Below are positions 29,086 to 53,592 of a stretch of DNA of 64,000 nt, one piece after another (the first letter of the stretch is position 1; every line of letters begins with the position of its first letter). The DNA is from Chloroflexales bacterium ZM16-3 (GTDB taxonomy: Bacteria; Chloroflexota; Chloroflexia; Chloroflexales; Chloroflexaceae). The notes under the pieces were generated by a model. That model made no database searches, had not been told where the DNA came from, and was given only the letters and a program-made list of their open reading frames with translations. Position numbers and translations under genes: made by a program. Location of the stretch: assembly GCA_004138175.2 (NCBI GenBank), contig RYFE02000011.1:62001-126000 (forward strand), in the 5' to 3' direction.

Positions 29086-38430
<9,345 letters not shown>

Positions 38431-38445
38431 TGGTCGACTCCAATA

Positions 38446-38494
38446 TTTGCCTATTGCGGGATTGCCGCTTCGCGGCAATCCCGCAATAGGCAAA
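38446..38494. repeat. Perfect 23-bp inverted repeat ahead of the synthase gene
   Basis: TTTGCCTATTGCGGGATTGC plus CGC, loop TTC, exact complement. It fills the 72-bp gap between the acyl-CoA dehydrogenase stop and the synthase ATG and ends 15 bases before that ATG, so it may affect synthase translation or transcript processing. Confidence 0.85.
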
Positions 38495-42045: not shown

Positions 42046-43497
42046 CTACGGCCCCACCGGGATTGTGAACGAGACCGTCGTCCCCGCGCCGGGGGCGCTC
42101 TCGGCGCGAATCTCGCCGCCGTGGGCCTCGACCATGCGCCGGGCGATGGCCAGCCCCAGCCCGGCCCCGCCGCTGCTGCGGGTGCGCGCCCGGTCGGCCC
42201 GGTAGAACCTGTCGAAGATATGCGGCAGGTCCTCGGCGGCGATCCCGCCGCCGGTGTCGCTCACCCGGAACACGATTTCAGATTGTTGATTGTTGATTGT
42301 TGATTGTCCACCCGAATCTGCAATCTGCAATCTGCAATCTGCAATCTCCGCCGAGAGCGTGACGCTGCCCCCGGCGGGCGTGTGGCGCAGGGCGTTGCCG
42401 AGCAGATTGCCGAGCACCTGGGCGATCCGCTGCGGGTCCACCGTGATCTCGGGCAGGTTGTCGGCAATCTCCAGGCGCAGCCCCACGCCGCGACCGGCGG
42501 CCTGCTGGGTGAAGGAGCTGCCAGCGTCGCGGGCGAGCTGGGCGGGCTCCACCGACTCGGGATAGAGCGGCAGCTGACCGGCCTCGGCCAAGGCCAGCAG
42601 GCGCAGGTCATCGATCAGGCGCTCTAGCAACGCCACCTCGCTCAGCAGCCCATCGATCTGCGGGGCGTCCGGCGCATACACCCCGTCCTGGATGCCCTCC
42701 AGACGGCCCTTGATGATCGAGAGCGGCGTGCGCAGCTCGTGGGCCACATCGGCGGTGAGCTGGCGGCGCTGCTGGTCGGCCTCCACCAGGGTCTCGGCCA
42801 TGCGGTTGAAGGCCACAGCCAGCTCACCCACCTCGCGCAGCGCCGAGGGTCGCACCCGCGCCGTCATATCGCCAGCGGCGAGGGACTGGGCCGCGCGGGT
42901 GAGCTGGCCCATGGGCCGGCTGATCTGCCGCGAGAAGAAGGCTGCCAGGGCCAGCAGGATCGCGGCCAGGGCCAGGCCCGCGCTGGCGAAACCCTGCACC
43001 AACCGTCGGCCATCGAACATCGCCCCAGATGAGTCGGCCCGCCCGCCGTCGTAGGAGATCAGCAGCGAGCCCACCACCCGCCCGCCGCTGCTGATCGGCA
43101 TGCTCTGGGTGAAGTTGCCGTAGCTCGCGCCAGAGAGCTGCGGGGGCACCGGCGGTGCCGATGGCCCCGCGATGACGACCGGGTCGGCCTGCGTGCTGGC
43201 CAGCACCCGGCCGTGGTCATCGACCAGGGTCACGGCCTGCCAGTCGGAGAGGTCACGCCTGCGCTCAATAGTCGAGAACCACTCCCCGACGCCGTCCCAC
43301 GAGCCGCGCCGCCCATAGAACGCCTCGATCTGGCGCACCTCATCGCGGGCGGTCATCTGAGCCTTCATGCTCCACTCGCCCGTGCGGCTCTCAAAGTTCG
43401 CCACCGCCAGCCCAAAGAATCCAAGCATACCGCCGACGCCCAGAATGATCACCAGGGCGAATGCGGTCAGCATCAGAATAAAGATTCGTGGGCGCAT
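42046..43497 (-). CDS. Sensor histidine kinase with a repeat-derived insertion
   Basis: A 483-residue membrane kinase: N-terminal helix, extracytoplasmic sensor (~30-165), second helix, HAMP (SRQISRPMGQLTRAAQSLAAG), HisKA (TADVAHELRTPLSII with the phospho-acceptor His) and HATPase with NLLGNALRHTP, VSDTGGGI, FDRFYRAD and GAGLGLAIAR. Between the N and G1 boxes an extra ~25 residues (EIADCRLQIADSGGQ then STINNQQSEIV) are encoded by two inverted heptamer arrays. The start at 43497 is chosen because everything upstream in frame is heptamer sequence; no ribosome site is visible. It partners the response regulator encoded just upstream on the same strand. Confidence 0.9.
   Translation of the reverse strand: MRPRIFILMLTAFALVIILGVGGMLGFFGLAVANFESRTGEWSMKAQMTARDEVRQIEAFYGRRGSWDGVGEWFSTIERRRDLSDWQAVTLVDDHGRVLASTQADPVVIAGPSAPPVPPQLSGASYGNFTQSMPISSGGRVVGSLLISYDGGRADSSGAMFDGRRLVQGFASAGLALAAILLALAAFFSRQISRPMGQLTRAAQSLAAGDMTARVRPSALREVGELAVAFNRMAETLVEADQQRRQLTADVAHELRTPLSIIKGRLEGIQDGVYAPDAPQIDGLLSEVALLERLIDDLRLLALAEAGQLPLYPESVEPAQLARDAGSSFTQQAAGRGVGLRLEIADNLPEITVDPQRIAQVLGNLLGNALRHTPAGGSVTLSAEIADCRLQIADSGGQSTINNQQSEIVFRVSDTGGGIAAEDLPHIFDRFYRADRARTRSSGGAGLGLAIARRMVEAHGGEIRAESAPGAGTTVSFTIPVGP
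42278..42348. repeat. Paired heptamer arrays within the HATPase domain
   Basis: ATTGTTG-type units (42279-42307) and inverted CAATCTG units (42314-42348). They are read in frame and lengthen the ATPase domain between its N and G1 boxes. Confidence 0.9.
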
Positions 43498-43500
43498 GAC

Positions 43501-43557
43501 GATTGCAGATTGTAGATTGCAGATTGCAGATTGCAGATTGACCTGCAATCTGCAATT
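43501..43557. repeat. Paired ATTGCAG heptamer arrays between regulator and kinase
   Basis: About five GATTGCA units, a short centre and two inverted CTGCAAT units fill the whole gap between the response regulator stop (43556-43558, overlapped by the array) and the kinase ATG. The transcript can fold into a hairpin directly ahead of the kinase start. Confidence 0.92.
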
Positions 43558-44251
43558 ATGTGGGTTCGGCGAACTTATAGCCGACGCCGTAGATAGTGAT
43601 GATGTACTGGGGGGTGTGGGTGTCGGGCTCGATCTTGCGGCGCAGGTTCTTGATGTGGGCGTCCACGGTGCGGTCGTAGCCAGCGTAGCTCACGTCGTAC
43701 ACCAGATCAAGCAGCTGGGCGCGGGTGAAGGGGCGGCCGGGCTCGCGGGCGAGGACGGCCAGCAGGTCAAACTCGGTGGCGGTGAGGTCGATCAGCTCGC
43801 CGTCGCGGCGCACGCTGCGCCGCTCCAGATCAACGCTCAGTCCGCCGATATGGATCACCCCGCCGGGCGCGGCGTCGCCCTCGCTGCGGCGGAGCACGGC
43901 CCGCACGCGGGCAACTAGCTCGCGCGGGCTGAAGGGCTTGGTGATATAGTCGTCGGCGCCGAGCTCCAGTCCGACCAGGAGATCAGCCTCCTCGACGCGG
44001 GCGGTGAGCATAATGATCGGCAGCTTGCGGGTGGCCGGGTCCTGGCGCAGGGCGCGGGTAACATCGAGGCCATCGACGCCGGGGAGCATCAGGTCGAGCA
44101 CCACCAAGCTAGGGCGCTCGGCGCGGGCCAGGCGGATGGCCGCGTTTCCATCCCCGGCGGTGATCACCCGGAACCCGGCCCGGTCGAGGTAGTCGCGGGC
44201 GATCTGCACGATGCCGGGCTCGTCATCGACAACCAGGATTGTCCGGGTCAT
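43556..44251 (-). CDS. OmpR/PhoB-family response regulator
   Basis: A 231-residue DNA-binding regulator. The receiver domain has VVDDEPGI at the N-terminus, the phospho-acceptor Asp in VVLDLMLPGVDGLD (~52), TAR near 82 and the conserved Lys in DDYITKPFSPRELVAR. The C-terminal winged helix has DLTATEFDLLAVLAREPGRP and the recognition end DRTVDAHIKNLRRKIEPD, VGYKF. GGAAGG precedes the ATG. It is encoded directly before the histidine kinase, and its stop codon lies in a heptamer array. Confidence 0.95.
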   Translation of the reverse strand: MTRTILVVDDEPGIVQIARDYLDRAGFRVITAGDGNAAIRLARAERPSLVVLDLMLPGVDGLDVTRALRQDPATRKLPIIMLTARVEEADLLVGLELGADDYITKPFSPRELVARVRAVLRRSEGDAAPGGVIHIGGLSVDLERRSVRRDGELIDLTATEFDLLAVLAREPGRPFTRAQLLDLVYDVSYAGYDRTVDAHIKNLRRKIEPDTHTPQYIITIYGVGYKFAEPT

Positions 44252-44926: not shown

Positions 44927-44998
44927 TGAATGTTGAATGTTGAATGTTGAATGTTGAATGCCGGACATTCAACATTCAACATTCAACATTCAACATTA
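44927..44998. repeat. Long hairpin of paired TTGAATG arrays
   Basis: Nearly five TGAATGT units, centre CCGGA, then inverted ACATTCA units giving a nearly perfect stem of about 32 bp. It follows the stop of the SCO1664-family gene by two bases, so it may serve as its transcription terminator. Confidence 0.93.
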
Positions 44999-51102: not shown

Positions 51103-53592
51103 ATGCTCGCCCGCACGGCCCTGCGCGCCGCCCAGATTGGCCTCGCCATCCTAGTGGCGGCATACCTGCTCTCCTTCGCCGACCACGCCCGCCAGCTGCT
51201 CGGCTTCACCCACCCGCTCGACTACGGCGAGGGGCCGCTGCTGGCCCAGGTGGATCAGCTGCGGACGGGCACGCCGATCTGGCGTCTCTACGCCGACCCC
51301 TCGGCCCCGCCCTACCTGATCGTCAACTACCCGCCGCTCTACCTGCTGCTCTGCGCCGGGCTCGCCGCGCTCACCGGCTCGGCCCTGCTCGCCGGTCGGC
51401 TGATCTCGCTGCTCTCAGCCCTCGCCGCCACGGCGGCAATCGCCGCACTGGCAGGGAACCACAATCAATGTGGTAAAAAGATTTTCGGGGAGGGACAAGC
51501 CCTCCCCGAGCCCCTCCCATCGAACACTCGTGGCTATCGGCTATTCCCCCTGCTCTTCCTCACCATCCCGATCGTGCGCGAGTGGGCCGCCCTGATGCGC
51601 GTCGACATGCTCGGGGTGGCCCTCGGCCTGTGGGGGCTGGTGGCCCTGGGCAGGCCGGGCGGGCGGCGACGGCCGCTGCTCGCTGGGCTGCTCATGCTCG
51701 CCAGCCTCTTCACCAAGCCCTCGCTGCTCGCCGCCCCCGCCGCCGCCGGTCTCTGGCTGCTCTGGGATCTGCTGCGGGCGCAACGGGGCGAGCGTGGGCC
51801 ACATCTGCGCAACCTGATCGCCCTCGGCGGCACCCTGGCACTCGGCGGCGGGCTGCTCTTCGGCCTGCTCCAGTGGGCCAGCGGCGGATGGTTCGCCCTG
51901 CATGTGGTGGCAGCCAACGCCAACCGCTGGGACGCCGGGCTGGCCCAGGGGTTCTGGGAGGCCCAGATCCGCCTGCGCTGGCCCCTGGCCGCCGCCGCCC
52001 TGCTGGCCCTTGTCGCCGCGATCATACACCGGGGCGAACACCATGTCCCCCTCGCCCCCGCGCTGATCTACACCCTCGCCGGCGCCCTCACCGCCGCCGG
52101 GGTCGGCAAGGTGGGTGCCTACAGCAACTACTTCCTGGAACTGTACGCCGGCCTGGTCTGGATTGTGGGGGTTGGGGGTTGGGGGTTGGGGGTTGGGGGT
52201 GCGGCGGAGCGCCAACCCCCAACCCCCAACCCCCAACTCCCGATCACCCTGCTCCTCATCCTCTCCCTGATCTACTACCCGCCCCTGTGGGACACAACAT
52301 GGCCGAGGGTGGCCGGCCTGCTCACGCCCAGCCCGCCTCGGATGGCCATCGGGGGCTACGGGCTCTGGGCCGACGCCGCCCGCGAGCGCGACCTGCTGGC
52401 CGCATTCGGTCGGGTGGACACCGCCCTGGAGCGCGAGGCCCGCGCCGCTGGCCCGGTGATCTTCGCCGATATGCCCGGCGTCGCCGCCGCCGCCGGGGTC
52501 GTGTCGCGCGCCCAGGTCTTCGAGTACCGCCAGCTGCTCGACCAGGGGCTGGCCGACCAGTCGGCCATGCTGGCTGATCTGGCCGCCGGTGAGCCGCCCC
52601 TGGCGGTGATCGACTACCTGGGCAACTGGCTCACCCCCGAGATGATCGCGATCCTGCGCCACCGCTACGCCCAGGACGGATCGCTGGGCACCTTCGACCT
52701 CTATCGGCCGGTGGACGCCGGGCCACCGCAGGTGATCGCCCCCCCGACGGGGCTGGGCGGCGGTCTGGAGCTGAGCGCTTACGCTCTGGCCGCCCCCGTC
52801 AGCGCGAGCTACGAGCCGGGCGAACTGCTGACCCTGGCCCTTAGCTGGCGACACATCGGTGACGCGCCGGGCGACATAACCGTCACCGTGCGCCTCACGA
52901 CGCCGGACGGCGCACCGCTGCTAGAGAGCGAGCTGCCCCTGATCTACGGCGCGCTCCCGCCGGATCACTGGCCCGAGGGTGCCGCCGTCCAGCACCTCCA
53001 GACCCTGGCCCTGCCCGATGAGCTGCCGCCGGGGCGCTACGGGCTGGCCGTGGAGCTGCGCGCCGGGGGCGAGTCGCTCGGGCCGCGCTATCGGCTGGCC
53101 GAGATCGATGTGCGCGGCGCGGGCGGGCGCACCTTTGAGGAGACCGGCCGCTTCGTCCCGGCGCCGATCATGCGCGCCTGGGCCGAGATGGGCGCGCTGG
53201 AGCGCGTGGGGCTGCCGCTCACCCCGGCGGTGCCCTTCGCCTGGGGGCAGCTCCAGTGCTTCGAGATCGCCTGCCTGGAACTACGCGATGGCGCGGTGAC
53301 GCCCCGCCCGCTGGGCGCACAGCTCTACCTGATCGAGACAAACCGCAGCGAGAGCTGCCCCGATGGCGCGCTAGAGAGCGGGGTCTGCGCGGGGTTCGCC
53401 GATCTCGCCGGGCGCTACGGCGTGAGCCTGGGGCCGCCGGTGAGCGGCGAGCTGCTGCGCAACGGCTGGCTGGCCCAGTGGACAGAGGGCGCGCGCCTGG
53501 AGCGCTGGCCCGACACGGGCGAGCAAGGGCTAGGCCGCCTCGGCGAAGAGAGCCTGCGCCTGCCGCCGGGGGGCAGCTACCGCTGGCCGTAG
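51103..53592 (+). CDS. GT39-like membrane glycosyltransferase
   Basis: An 829-residue protein with about ten N-terminal membrane helices and a large C-terminal extracytoplasmic part. The first loop LDYGEGPLLAQVDQLRTGTP and VNYPPLYLLLCAGL fit polyprenyl-phosphate-sugar mannosyl/arabinosyl transferases (GT39/ArnT-like). Two repeat-derived inserts interrupt the helical part: HNQCGKKIFGEGQALPEPLP (from a GGGGAGGG hairpin) and [12 protein letters not shown]...PPTPNPQLP (from inverted GGGGGTT heptamers). The C-terminal ~350 residues are beta-rich with no motif I recognise. The upstream ORF extension is repeat sequence, so I take the ATG at 51103, which has only a weak ribosome site. The acceptor is unknown. 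Confidence 0.82.
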   Translation: MLARTALRAAQIGLAILVAAYLLSFADHARQLLGFTHPLDYGEGPLLAQVDQLRTGTPIWRLYADPSAPPYLIVNYPPLYLLLCAGLAALTGSALLAGRLISLLSALAATAAIAALAGNHNQCGKKIFGEGQALPEPLPSNTRGYRLFPLLFLTIPIVREWAALMRVDMLGVALGLWGLVALGRPGGRRRPLLAGLLMLASLFTKPSLLAAPAAAGLWLLWDLLRAQRGERGPHLRNLIALGGTLALGGGLLFGLLQWASGGWFALHVVAANANRWDAGLAQGFWEAQIRLRWPLAAAALLALVAAIIHRGEHHVPLAPALIYTLAGALTAAGVGKVGAYSNYFLELYAGLVWIVGVGGWGLGVGGAAERQPPTPNPQLPITLLLILSLIYYPPLWDTTWPRVAGLLTPSPPRMAIGGYGLWADAARERDLLAAFGRVDTALEREARAAGPVIFADMPGVAAAAGVVSRAQVFEYRQLLDQGLADQSAMLADLAAGEPPLAVIDYLGNWLTPEMIAILRHRYAQDGSLGTFDLYRPVDAGPPQVIAPPTGLGGGLELSAYALAAPVSASYEPGELLTLALSWRHIGDAPGDITVTVRLTTPDGAPLLESELPLIYGALPPDHWPEGAAVQHLQTLALPDELPPGRYGLAVELRAGGESLGPRYRLAEIDVRGAGGRTFEETGRFVPAPIMRAWAEMGALERVGLPLTPAVPFAWGQLQCFEIACLELRDGAVTPRPLGAQLYLIETNRSESCPDGALESGVCAGFADLAGRYGVSLGPPVSGELLRNGWLAQWTEGARLERWPDTGEQGLGRLGEESLRLPPGGSYRWP
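52166..52238. repeat. Paired GGGGGTT heptamer arrays inside the glycosyltransferase gene
   Basis: About five GGGGGTT units (52166-52200), a 12-base centre and nearly four inverted CCCCCAA units (52212-52238). Read in frame as a Gly-rich then Pro-rich loop between two membrane helices. Confidence 0.93.

Follow-up and report, generated by a model that had tools for sequence, protein, structure and literature searches.

An in-frame heptamer hairpin at a turn of the ATPase domain of a Chloroflexales histidine kinase, and differing hairpins at kinase turns of sister species

Palindromic DNA within protein-coding genes has been described in Rickettsia, where palindromic elements of ~150 bp, belonging to defined families with a conserved peptide, lie in frame within unrelated conserved genes (Ogata et al. 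2000, 2002, as summarised in PMC10969869). In the accessible text of PMC4692102, the GGGAATC and GGGGA(C/T)T heptamer repeats of Xanthomonas and Nostoc form genome-wide arrays; the Xanthomonas arrays often occur as facing inverted pairs (70 and 75 cases) whose type is usually kept between two species, and these G-tract repeats, which have been studied for quadruplex formation, are under-represented in coding DNA. Seven is a favoured repeat length (Mrazek 2007, as cited in PMC4679880), and an abundant GATAGRA heptamer family is described for Chloroflexus aurantiacus in the portion of PMC6749651 consulted.

The kinase and its insert

The window (the whole stretch of DNA that was analysed, 64,000 nucleotides of Chloroflexales bacterium ZM16-3, contig RYFE02000011.1) contains a sensor histidine kinase gene with facing heptamer arrays in its ATPase domain. 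The host bacterium is photosynthetic. The features of the locus are the following.

42046..43497, minus strand: sensor histidine kinase, 483 aa, with HAMP, HisKA and HATPase_c domains
42055..42438, minus strand: HATPase_c domain match, 384 nt (profile match G000:C13:104055-104438)
42278..42348, minus strand: heptamer hairpin insert, residues 384-407, in the beta turn leading from the N box to the G1 box
42281..42307, minus strand: second sense-strand arm, AACAATC units (GATTGTT on the plus strand), 3.9 copies
42308..42314, minus strand: gap separating the two arms, kept in the sister species
42315..42347, minus strand: first sense-strand arm, GATTGCA units (AATCTGC on the plus strand), 4.7 copies, identical in the sister species
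43501..43558, no strand assigned: intergenic heptamer hairpin of the GATTGCA type, in the gap between kinase and response regulator
43556..44251, minus strand: response regulator (Response_reg, Trans_reg_C), adjoining the kinase and likely its partner

The initial annotation had read ATTGTTG and inverted CAATCTG arrays in the ATPase domain, and Tandem Repeats Finder indeed returned two perfect arrays face to face across a 7-nt gap, GATTGTT (x3.9, 42281-42307) and AATCTGC (x4.7, 42315-42347), both with 100% matches. Chance is ruled out as their source, because their period-7 match runs cover 20 and 26 positions and 20 order-1 Markov sequences, each 64 kb long, reached no more than 10. The segment 42278-42348 encodes 24 residues (384-407, EIADCRLQIADSGGQSTINNQQSE), close to the figure of about 25 given beforehand, with the N box (NLLGNALRH, residue 364) on one side and the G1 box (DTGGG, residue 414) on the other. 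The statement that kinases normally have a short turn here also holds, in that homologues are shorter at this point; the close uninserted relative L006, for example, has 10 residues between the strands against 28 in the window kinase, a net gain of 18. The remainder of the domain is intact, as had been claimed: the HATPase_c match scores 111 bits (E 5e-32), HAMP 58.2 and HisKA 47.4, all above the cut-off, and the residues of the N and G1 boxes belong to invariant columns of kinase alignment A1. Many full-length HATPase_c domains in the window genome measure 324-350 nt. The term hairpin needs qualification, since inverted pairing is present but weakened: the RNA of the window copy folds at -28.4 kcal/mol (z -3.1) into short helices with one break per unit, and that of the sister copy, on the strand antisense to the gene, at -55.3 kcal/mol (z -12.2).

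A protein search for the kinase in 61 genomes (the window's own and 60 relatives) found a close orthologue (87%) in the sister species G004, taken as Oscillochloris sp. ZM17-4 (contig C139, 196,319 bases, NZ_JAIEWN010000006.1), which falls in one genus with the window genome; other full-length homologues stood at 56-63%. In the alignment with the closest kinases, the check that had been suggested, the segment was absent from all except this orthologue, so that 2/22 aligned homologues carry it. At the turn position of homologue L029 there is an insert unrelated in sequence. Below, contigs of the window genome are marked own and those of Oscillochloris sp. ZM17-4 sister.

An alternative kinase ORF with a TTG start (500 aa) extends into the upstream array at 43501-43540, and a start at the ATG of 43497 is more likely. 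The TTG start would add MQVNLQSAICNLQSAIV out of the 43501-43558 hairpin, and this extension is probably spurious.

Hairpins at the same turn and in other slots

HATPase_c matches numbered 123 in the own genome and 129 in the sister, and 83 of these 252 domains (51 own, 32 sister), picked for unusual length or because their contig was already part of the analysis, were examined for inverted repeats. A score of at least 12 was reached by 8/83, and in 8/8 the repeat lay in the turn, at nucleotides 90-172, ending before G1; sister C161:34524 is a marginal member of the eight, and the window copy, with its pairing broken, scores 11 at the turn position. Judged from these sequences, the kinase turn before G1 appears to be a recurrent landing site within the genus, occupied as listed here.

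GATTGCA hairpins at the kinase turn: the window kinase and sister C139, own C60, sister C1:327278
further GATTGCA-type kinase turns: G005 C592, and G001 C452, decayed
AAGGATG hairpins at the kinase turn: sister C113, sister C161, G003 C440, and G003 C261, partly decayed
half element at the kinase turn: sister C35
non-heptamer palindrome at the kinase turn, GAGGGTCTCAGGGAGGG and its inverse: own C1:271640, sister C1:300828
what look like decayed remains at the kinase turn: own C40, own C1:380602, sister C1:428168, G003 C309

The initial annotation had named homologues with such an insert made of unrelated DNA as the case that would count against it. This case was found in other kinases of the same genus and not in the kinase's own orthologue; because unrelated DNA at the turn of other kinases means that the site is reused, the finding stands.

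Orthologous turns differ between the two species in two ways. Hairpins have been swapped in two syntenic pairs, own C60 (GATTGCA) against sister C113 (AAGGATG), with matched blocks at 73-89%, and own C1:271640 (the GAGGGTCTCAGGGAGGG palindrome) against sister C1:327278 (a GATTGCA hairpin). In two other pairs a filled turn faces an empty one: sister C161 and own C93 share 90.5% identity over the compared stretch, matched across the kinase and not across wide flanks, and sister C35 and own C54 share 92.8% over theirs. A possible further pair of orthologues, own C40 and sister C1:300828, matches at 74% with no flanks in common. In the filled-versus-empty alignments the turn codons are replaced and there is no clear target duplication. 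A sequence-specific target site was considered and rejected, as the flank sequence in common is only what the conserved strands encode.

A single origin of the hairpins in kinases was considered with a kinase tree of 83 rows, comprising the 80/83 domains in which a G1 box was found (those lacking one were left out of the tree only) and 3 from G003, with the turn removed. The hairpin label, set for 14 rows of which two are marginal (own C57 and sister C161:34524), requires 3 changes, which is not clearly fewer than in shuffles, and the tree has too few columns for counting origins. Patterns running from array to G1 box matched at 8 places in 7/61 genomes (CTGCAATC) and at 3 places in 2/61 (TTCATCCTT); these patterns miss the window copy and the decayed copies, and the matches that convince by eye belong to the window's genus. 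A rare palindrome with GGGAGGGT...ACCCTCCC arms was seen in kinase turns of two species and in three other places (L254 11840-11920; L278 about 11050; L035, L041, L047).

Heptamer arrays extend far beyond the kinases. Period 7 dominates the arrays in 1.1 Mb of the two genomes, with 37 arrays on own C13 against 0-5 for each other period, and the same 1.1 Mb contains 55 facing array pairs (orthologous pairs counted twice), of which 51 have the G-richer strand first, 0 the C-richer strand and 4 are ties. In a census of stems on own C13, C36 and C51 and sister C139 and C106, heptamer hairpins were 69 G-first, 1 C-first and 7 ties, and hairpin density was 25-38 per 100 kb, with none in one shuffled contig; non-heptamer hairpins numbered 160 G-first, 32 C-first and 67 ties. 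The dominant unit varies with the species: three-unit GATTGCA matches numbered 144 in the own genome, 522 in the sister and 6 in G003, and three-unit AAGGATG matches 8, 55 and 62. The control pattern, three AAGGATG units reversed, gave 75 matches in G016, which has another heptamer dialect. A terminator role was rejected as the main reason for the arrays: it explains little, as there is only a mild deficit between divergent genes (by a home-made gene caller, 95 intergenic arrays are tandem, 27 convergent and 19 divergent, whereas gaps of 40 bp or more number 401, 96 and 112).

Slots outside the kinases likewise change their content. For 61 own array clusters the sister slot could be located (23 further clusters could not be placed), and it held the same unit, within one change, in 29, another heptamer unit in 11, another hairpin in 10, other sequence in 5 and nothing in 6. 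Control own intergenic sites without a hairpin had a sister hairpin in 20 of the 75 that were locatable (28 more were not), and the comparison of 21/32 with 20/75 gave P = 2e-4; given these control sites, slot reuse is in part background. The 71-nt GAATGTT hairpin at 44927-44997 is identical in the sister, unlike most arrays.

Several other proteins contain such hairpins in frame. A xanthine-dehydrogenase-type subunit has GCTGAGG units in the own genome and GATTGCA units in the sister, and an 896-aa ORF lacking a Pfam match has a GGGGTTG hairpin at 52166-52241 and GGCTATC units in its sister slot. A LeuA-like enzyme (L041 16860-18482) has a GATTGCA hairpin directly before a GIHTHNDGALAVANA stretch in the sister only (C139:57450-57517), absent in the window genome; a CobN/Mg-chelatase-type protein has hairpins in the sister, and in a CheB-like protein the slot lies in a linker. 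Among slots of differing length in genes of both species, the difference was a multiple of 3 in 15/16 rows, corresponding to 10/11 distinct slots (P = 1.3e-4), a suggestive count, since four of the 11 were paired with an antisense gene call in the other genome (three in a PKS-like gene and a CobN-like one) and 6/7 remain once these are dropped. A very long ORF in the window, 29086-38493, which we take to be PKS-like, has five 330-bp tandem repeats and arrays at 31587-33553, and the linkers between its repeated domains are GAGTCGG/GAGTCAG heptamer arrays.

The reading frame limits which units an arm can hold. Between window and sister the first arm and the loop are unchanged and the second arm differs, being of GATTGCA/GATTGTA type in the sister, whose hairpin is near perfect with a 32-bp stem; in the window the GATTGCA units of this arm have drifted to GATTGTT. 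GATTGCA is free of stops in all six frames, whereas the G-strand of GATTGTT contains a TGA, which is in frame in any array of at least three units, and its complement AACAATC is open. The window kinase reads the sense arm as GATTGCA and the other as AACAATC. Because of the TGA the sense arm is barred from GATTGTT, and translation thus accounts for the uneven arms, in that only the arm read as AACAATC could drift. In the AAGGATG kinase hairpins the TGA-giving unit is swapped for AAGGGCG (sister C161), AAGGGAG (sister C113) or AAGGCGG (G003 C440), and by eye the facing arm of each shows a matching or near-matching change, as either copying from arm to arm or selection on pairing would give. An excess of mirrored variants points the same way (in 66 elements 55 variants were mirrored and 111 were not, where shuffles gave a mean of 16.5 and a maximum of 29; for the 31 elements of the own genome the figures were 37 and 65, with 11.1 and 19 in shuffles), an excess that is biased upward because elements were picked for good pairing.

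Origin of the insert and its consequence for the kinase

The insert is absent from more distant homologues, present in the sister and in frame, and slots swap one hairpin for another. It is probably one member of a genome-wide class of small elements built from facing 7-bp arrays, which came to lie in frame in an exposed turn and is translated as a flexible loop. We propose that such hairpin DNA frequently forms or lands, that the element would have come in as inverted-repeat DNA already formed, through template switching or through short tracts of gene conversion among paralogous kinases, and that most gene-borne copies are presumably lost, those in frame in exposed turns and linkers surviving. 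Units may then spread within an arm by slippage and may partly be copied between arms, within the limit that the sense arm has no stop. The element would persist because the turn tolerates changes of length and GATTGCA is stop-free in six frames. The moving step of the hairpin is one that we infer rather than see.

It is possible, if on balance doubtful, that hairpins pass from kinase to kinase by gene conversion across the conserved DNA flanking the turn and not by a fresh insertion in each kinase. The kinases of own C1:271640 and sister C1:300828, about 75% identical where they match, share a palindrome and short flanks; two different kinases, own C60 and sister C1:327278, have a common loop between their GATTGCA arms; and many occupied kinases form one subfamily. 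That subfamily does not include the window kinase, C161/C440 or C35, however, and genes other than kinases also show swaps and in-frame copies. Gene conversion is compatible with insertion of a genome-wide element and is plausible for the one subfamily.

The initial annotation had left it that the kinase either tolerates the insertion or is altered by it, and our results favour tolerance, an effect on activity being possible. The dN/dS ratio between window and sister is 0.25 over all kinase codons except the insert and 0.14 over HisKA and HATPase with the insert left out, indicating purifying selection, at a kinase dS of ~0.29. A structure model of the window kinase has a mean pLDDT of 78.7, with strands at 378-386 and 407-414 flanking the insert and a pLDDT below 50 at 396-403, and it predicts that the insert forms a loose flexible loop joining two intact strands. 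Because the core is under purifying selection, the motifs are intact and the low-confidence loop lies between well-predicted strands, the kinase most likely still works with its insert, the effect of which is most likely none or slight.

That the loop is instead functional, changing dimer contacts, ATP binding or the choice of partner, and that selection keeps a hairpin at the turn, seems unlikely. The insert interval is 70 nt in both species, and a length unchanged at this dS could mean a useful loop; since only two species share the window kinase's insert, a single comparison underlies any estimate of its age and stability. Related kinases also hold several kinds of hairpin at the turn, and 2/5 copies of the GAGGG palindrome lie in kinase turns (in 1.4 Mb examined, partly chosen for containing a kinase). 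Conversely, the encoded peptides are unrelated (IADCRLQI, KDEGRRMKDE, REGLREGSTLPETL), the loop is predicted at low confidence, two orthologue pairs differ in the presence of a hairpin and several copies have decayed.

We consider it quite unlikely that a dedicated process writes or swaps hairpins at fixed slots regardless of their sequence, with the arms changing together and the G-rich strand leading; protein turns would then count among its slots. Such a process could take the form of templated heptamer addition at the two ends of a break, which are then joined; this would yield the facing, G-first architecture, as in fused telomeres.

It is highly improbable that the insert is a phase-variable repeat in which slippage adds or drops units and toggles the kinase on and off. 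Dropping a single 7-nt unit would throw the gene out of frame, 7 not being divisible by 3, and 7 is the dominant tandem period here, but the kinase interval is equal in the two species, 10/11 of the coding slots that differ in length do so by multiples of 3, and the arms are short (3.9 and 4.7 units) with different units. A simple phase-variable repeat is not supported, as frame-shifting changes of unit number were not encountered between the two species compared. Lastly, repeats are prone to misassembly, but an assembly or chance artefact has next to no probability, since a second, independent genome, that of Oscillochloris sp. ZM17-4, carries the insert at the identical codon and random period-7 runs never exceeded 10 matches.

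These genomes offer countable cases of repeat DNA turned into the sequence of a conserved enzyme, with filled, empty and swapped versions in sister species, and related kinases with different hairpins at one loop are a natural experiment in the conversion of selfish DNA into protein. Two matters are directly testable: whether the inserts are neutral passengers or useful loops, and the process that copies, converts and replaces hairpins in bacterial chromosomes. There is also a warning for annotation: in these genomes the words CRLQIAD, CNLQSAI, NIQHSTF, HPSSFIL and ESGVGSR are translated repeats, and upstream of a gene such words can mislead start calling, as with the window kinase.

Comparison with described repeats

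In phase-variation tandem repeats the in-gene unit is not a multiple of 3, and this is so here, but length differences here keep the frame. In comparison with MITEs, filled and empty sites show turn codons replaced and no clear target-site duplication. Period seven is common to these arrays and to heptanucleotide repeats and satellites, and an abundant heptamer family is reported in the relative Chloroflexus aurantiacus, whereas inverted pairing, exchange of units and in-frame coding use are not described in the accessible parts of PMC6749651 and PMC4679880. Facing inverted pairs, 55 in 1.1 Mb here, recall the Xanthomonas heptamers as presented in PMC4692102. In contrast to the Xanthomonas and Nostoc repeats of that account, GATTGCA, GATTGTT and AAGGATG lack a run of three G, which GGGGTTG and GGGAGTC of the window genome possess, and many copies here lie inside genes.

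The resemblance to the Rickettsia palindromic elements, as the summary in PMC10969869 presents them, is that palindromes (the window copy itself being imperfect) lie in frame in unrelated genes and add a peptide without destroying the protein. Unlike those elements of ~150 bp, the hairpins described here measure about 40-80 nt and consist mostly of 7-bp units, their peptides vary with the unit, and many unrelated sequences replace each other at one site. A description of exchangeable in-frame heptamer hairpins was not found in the accessible open-licence literature. In-frame palindromes (Rickettsia), heptamer arrays and facing pairs (Xanthomonas) and heptamer satellites (Chloroflexus) are already known from the sources cited, and on sequence grounds the heptamer-built hairpins appear to be a distinct variant of their closest known kind, the protein-coding palindromes of Rickettsia.
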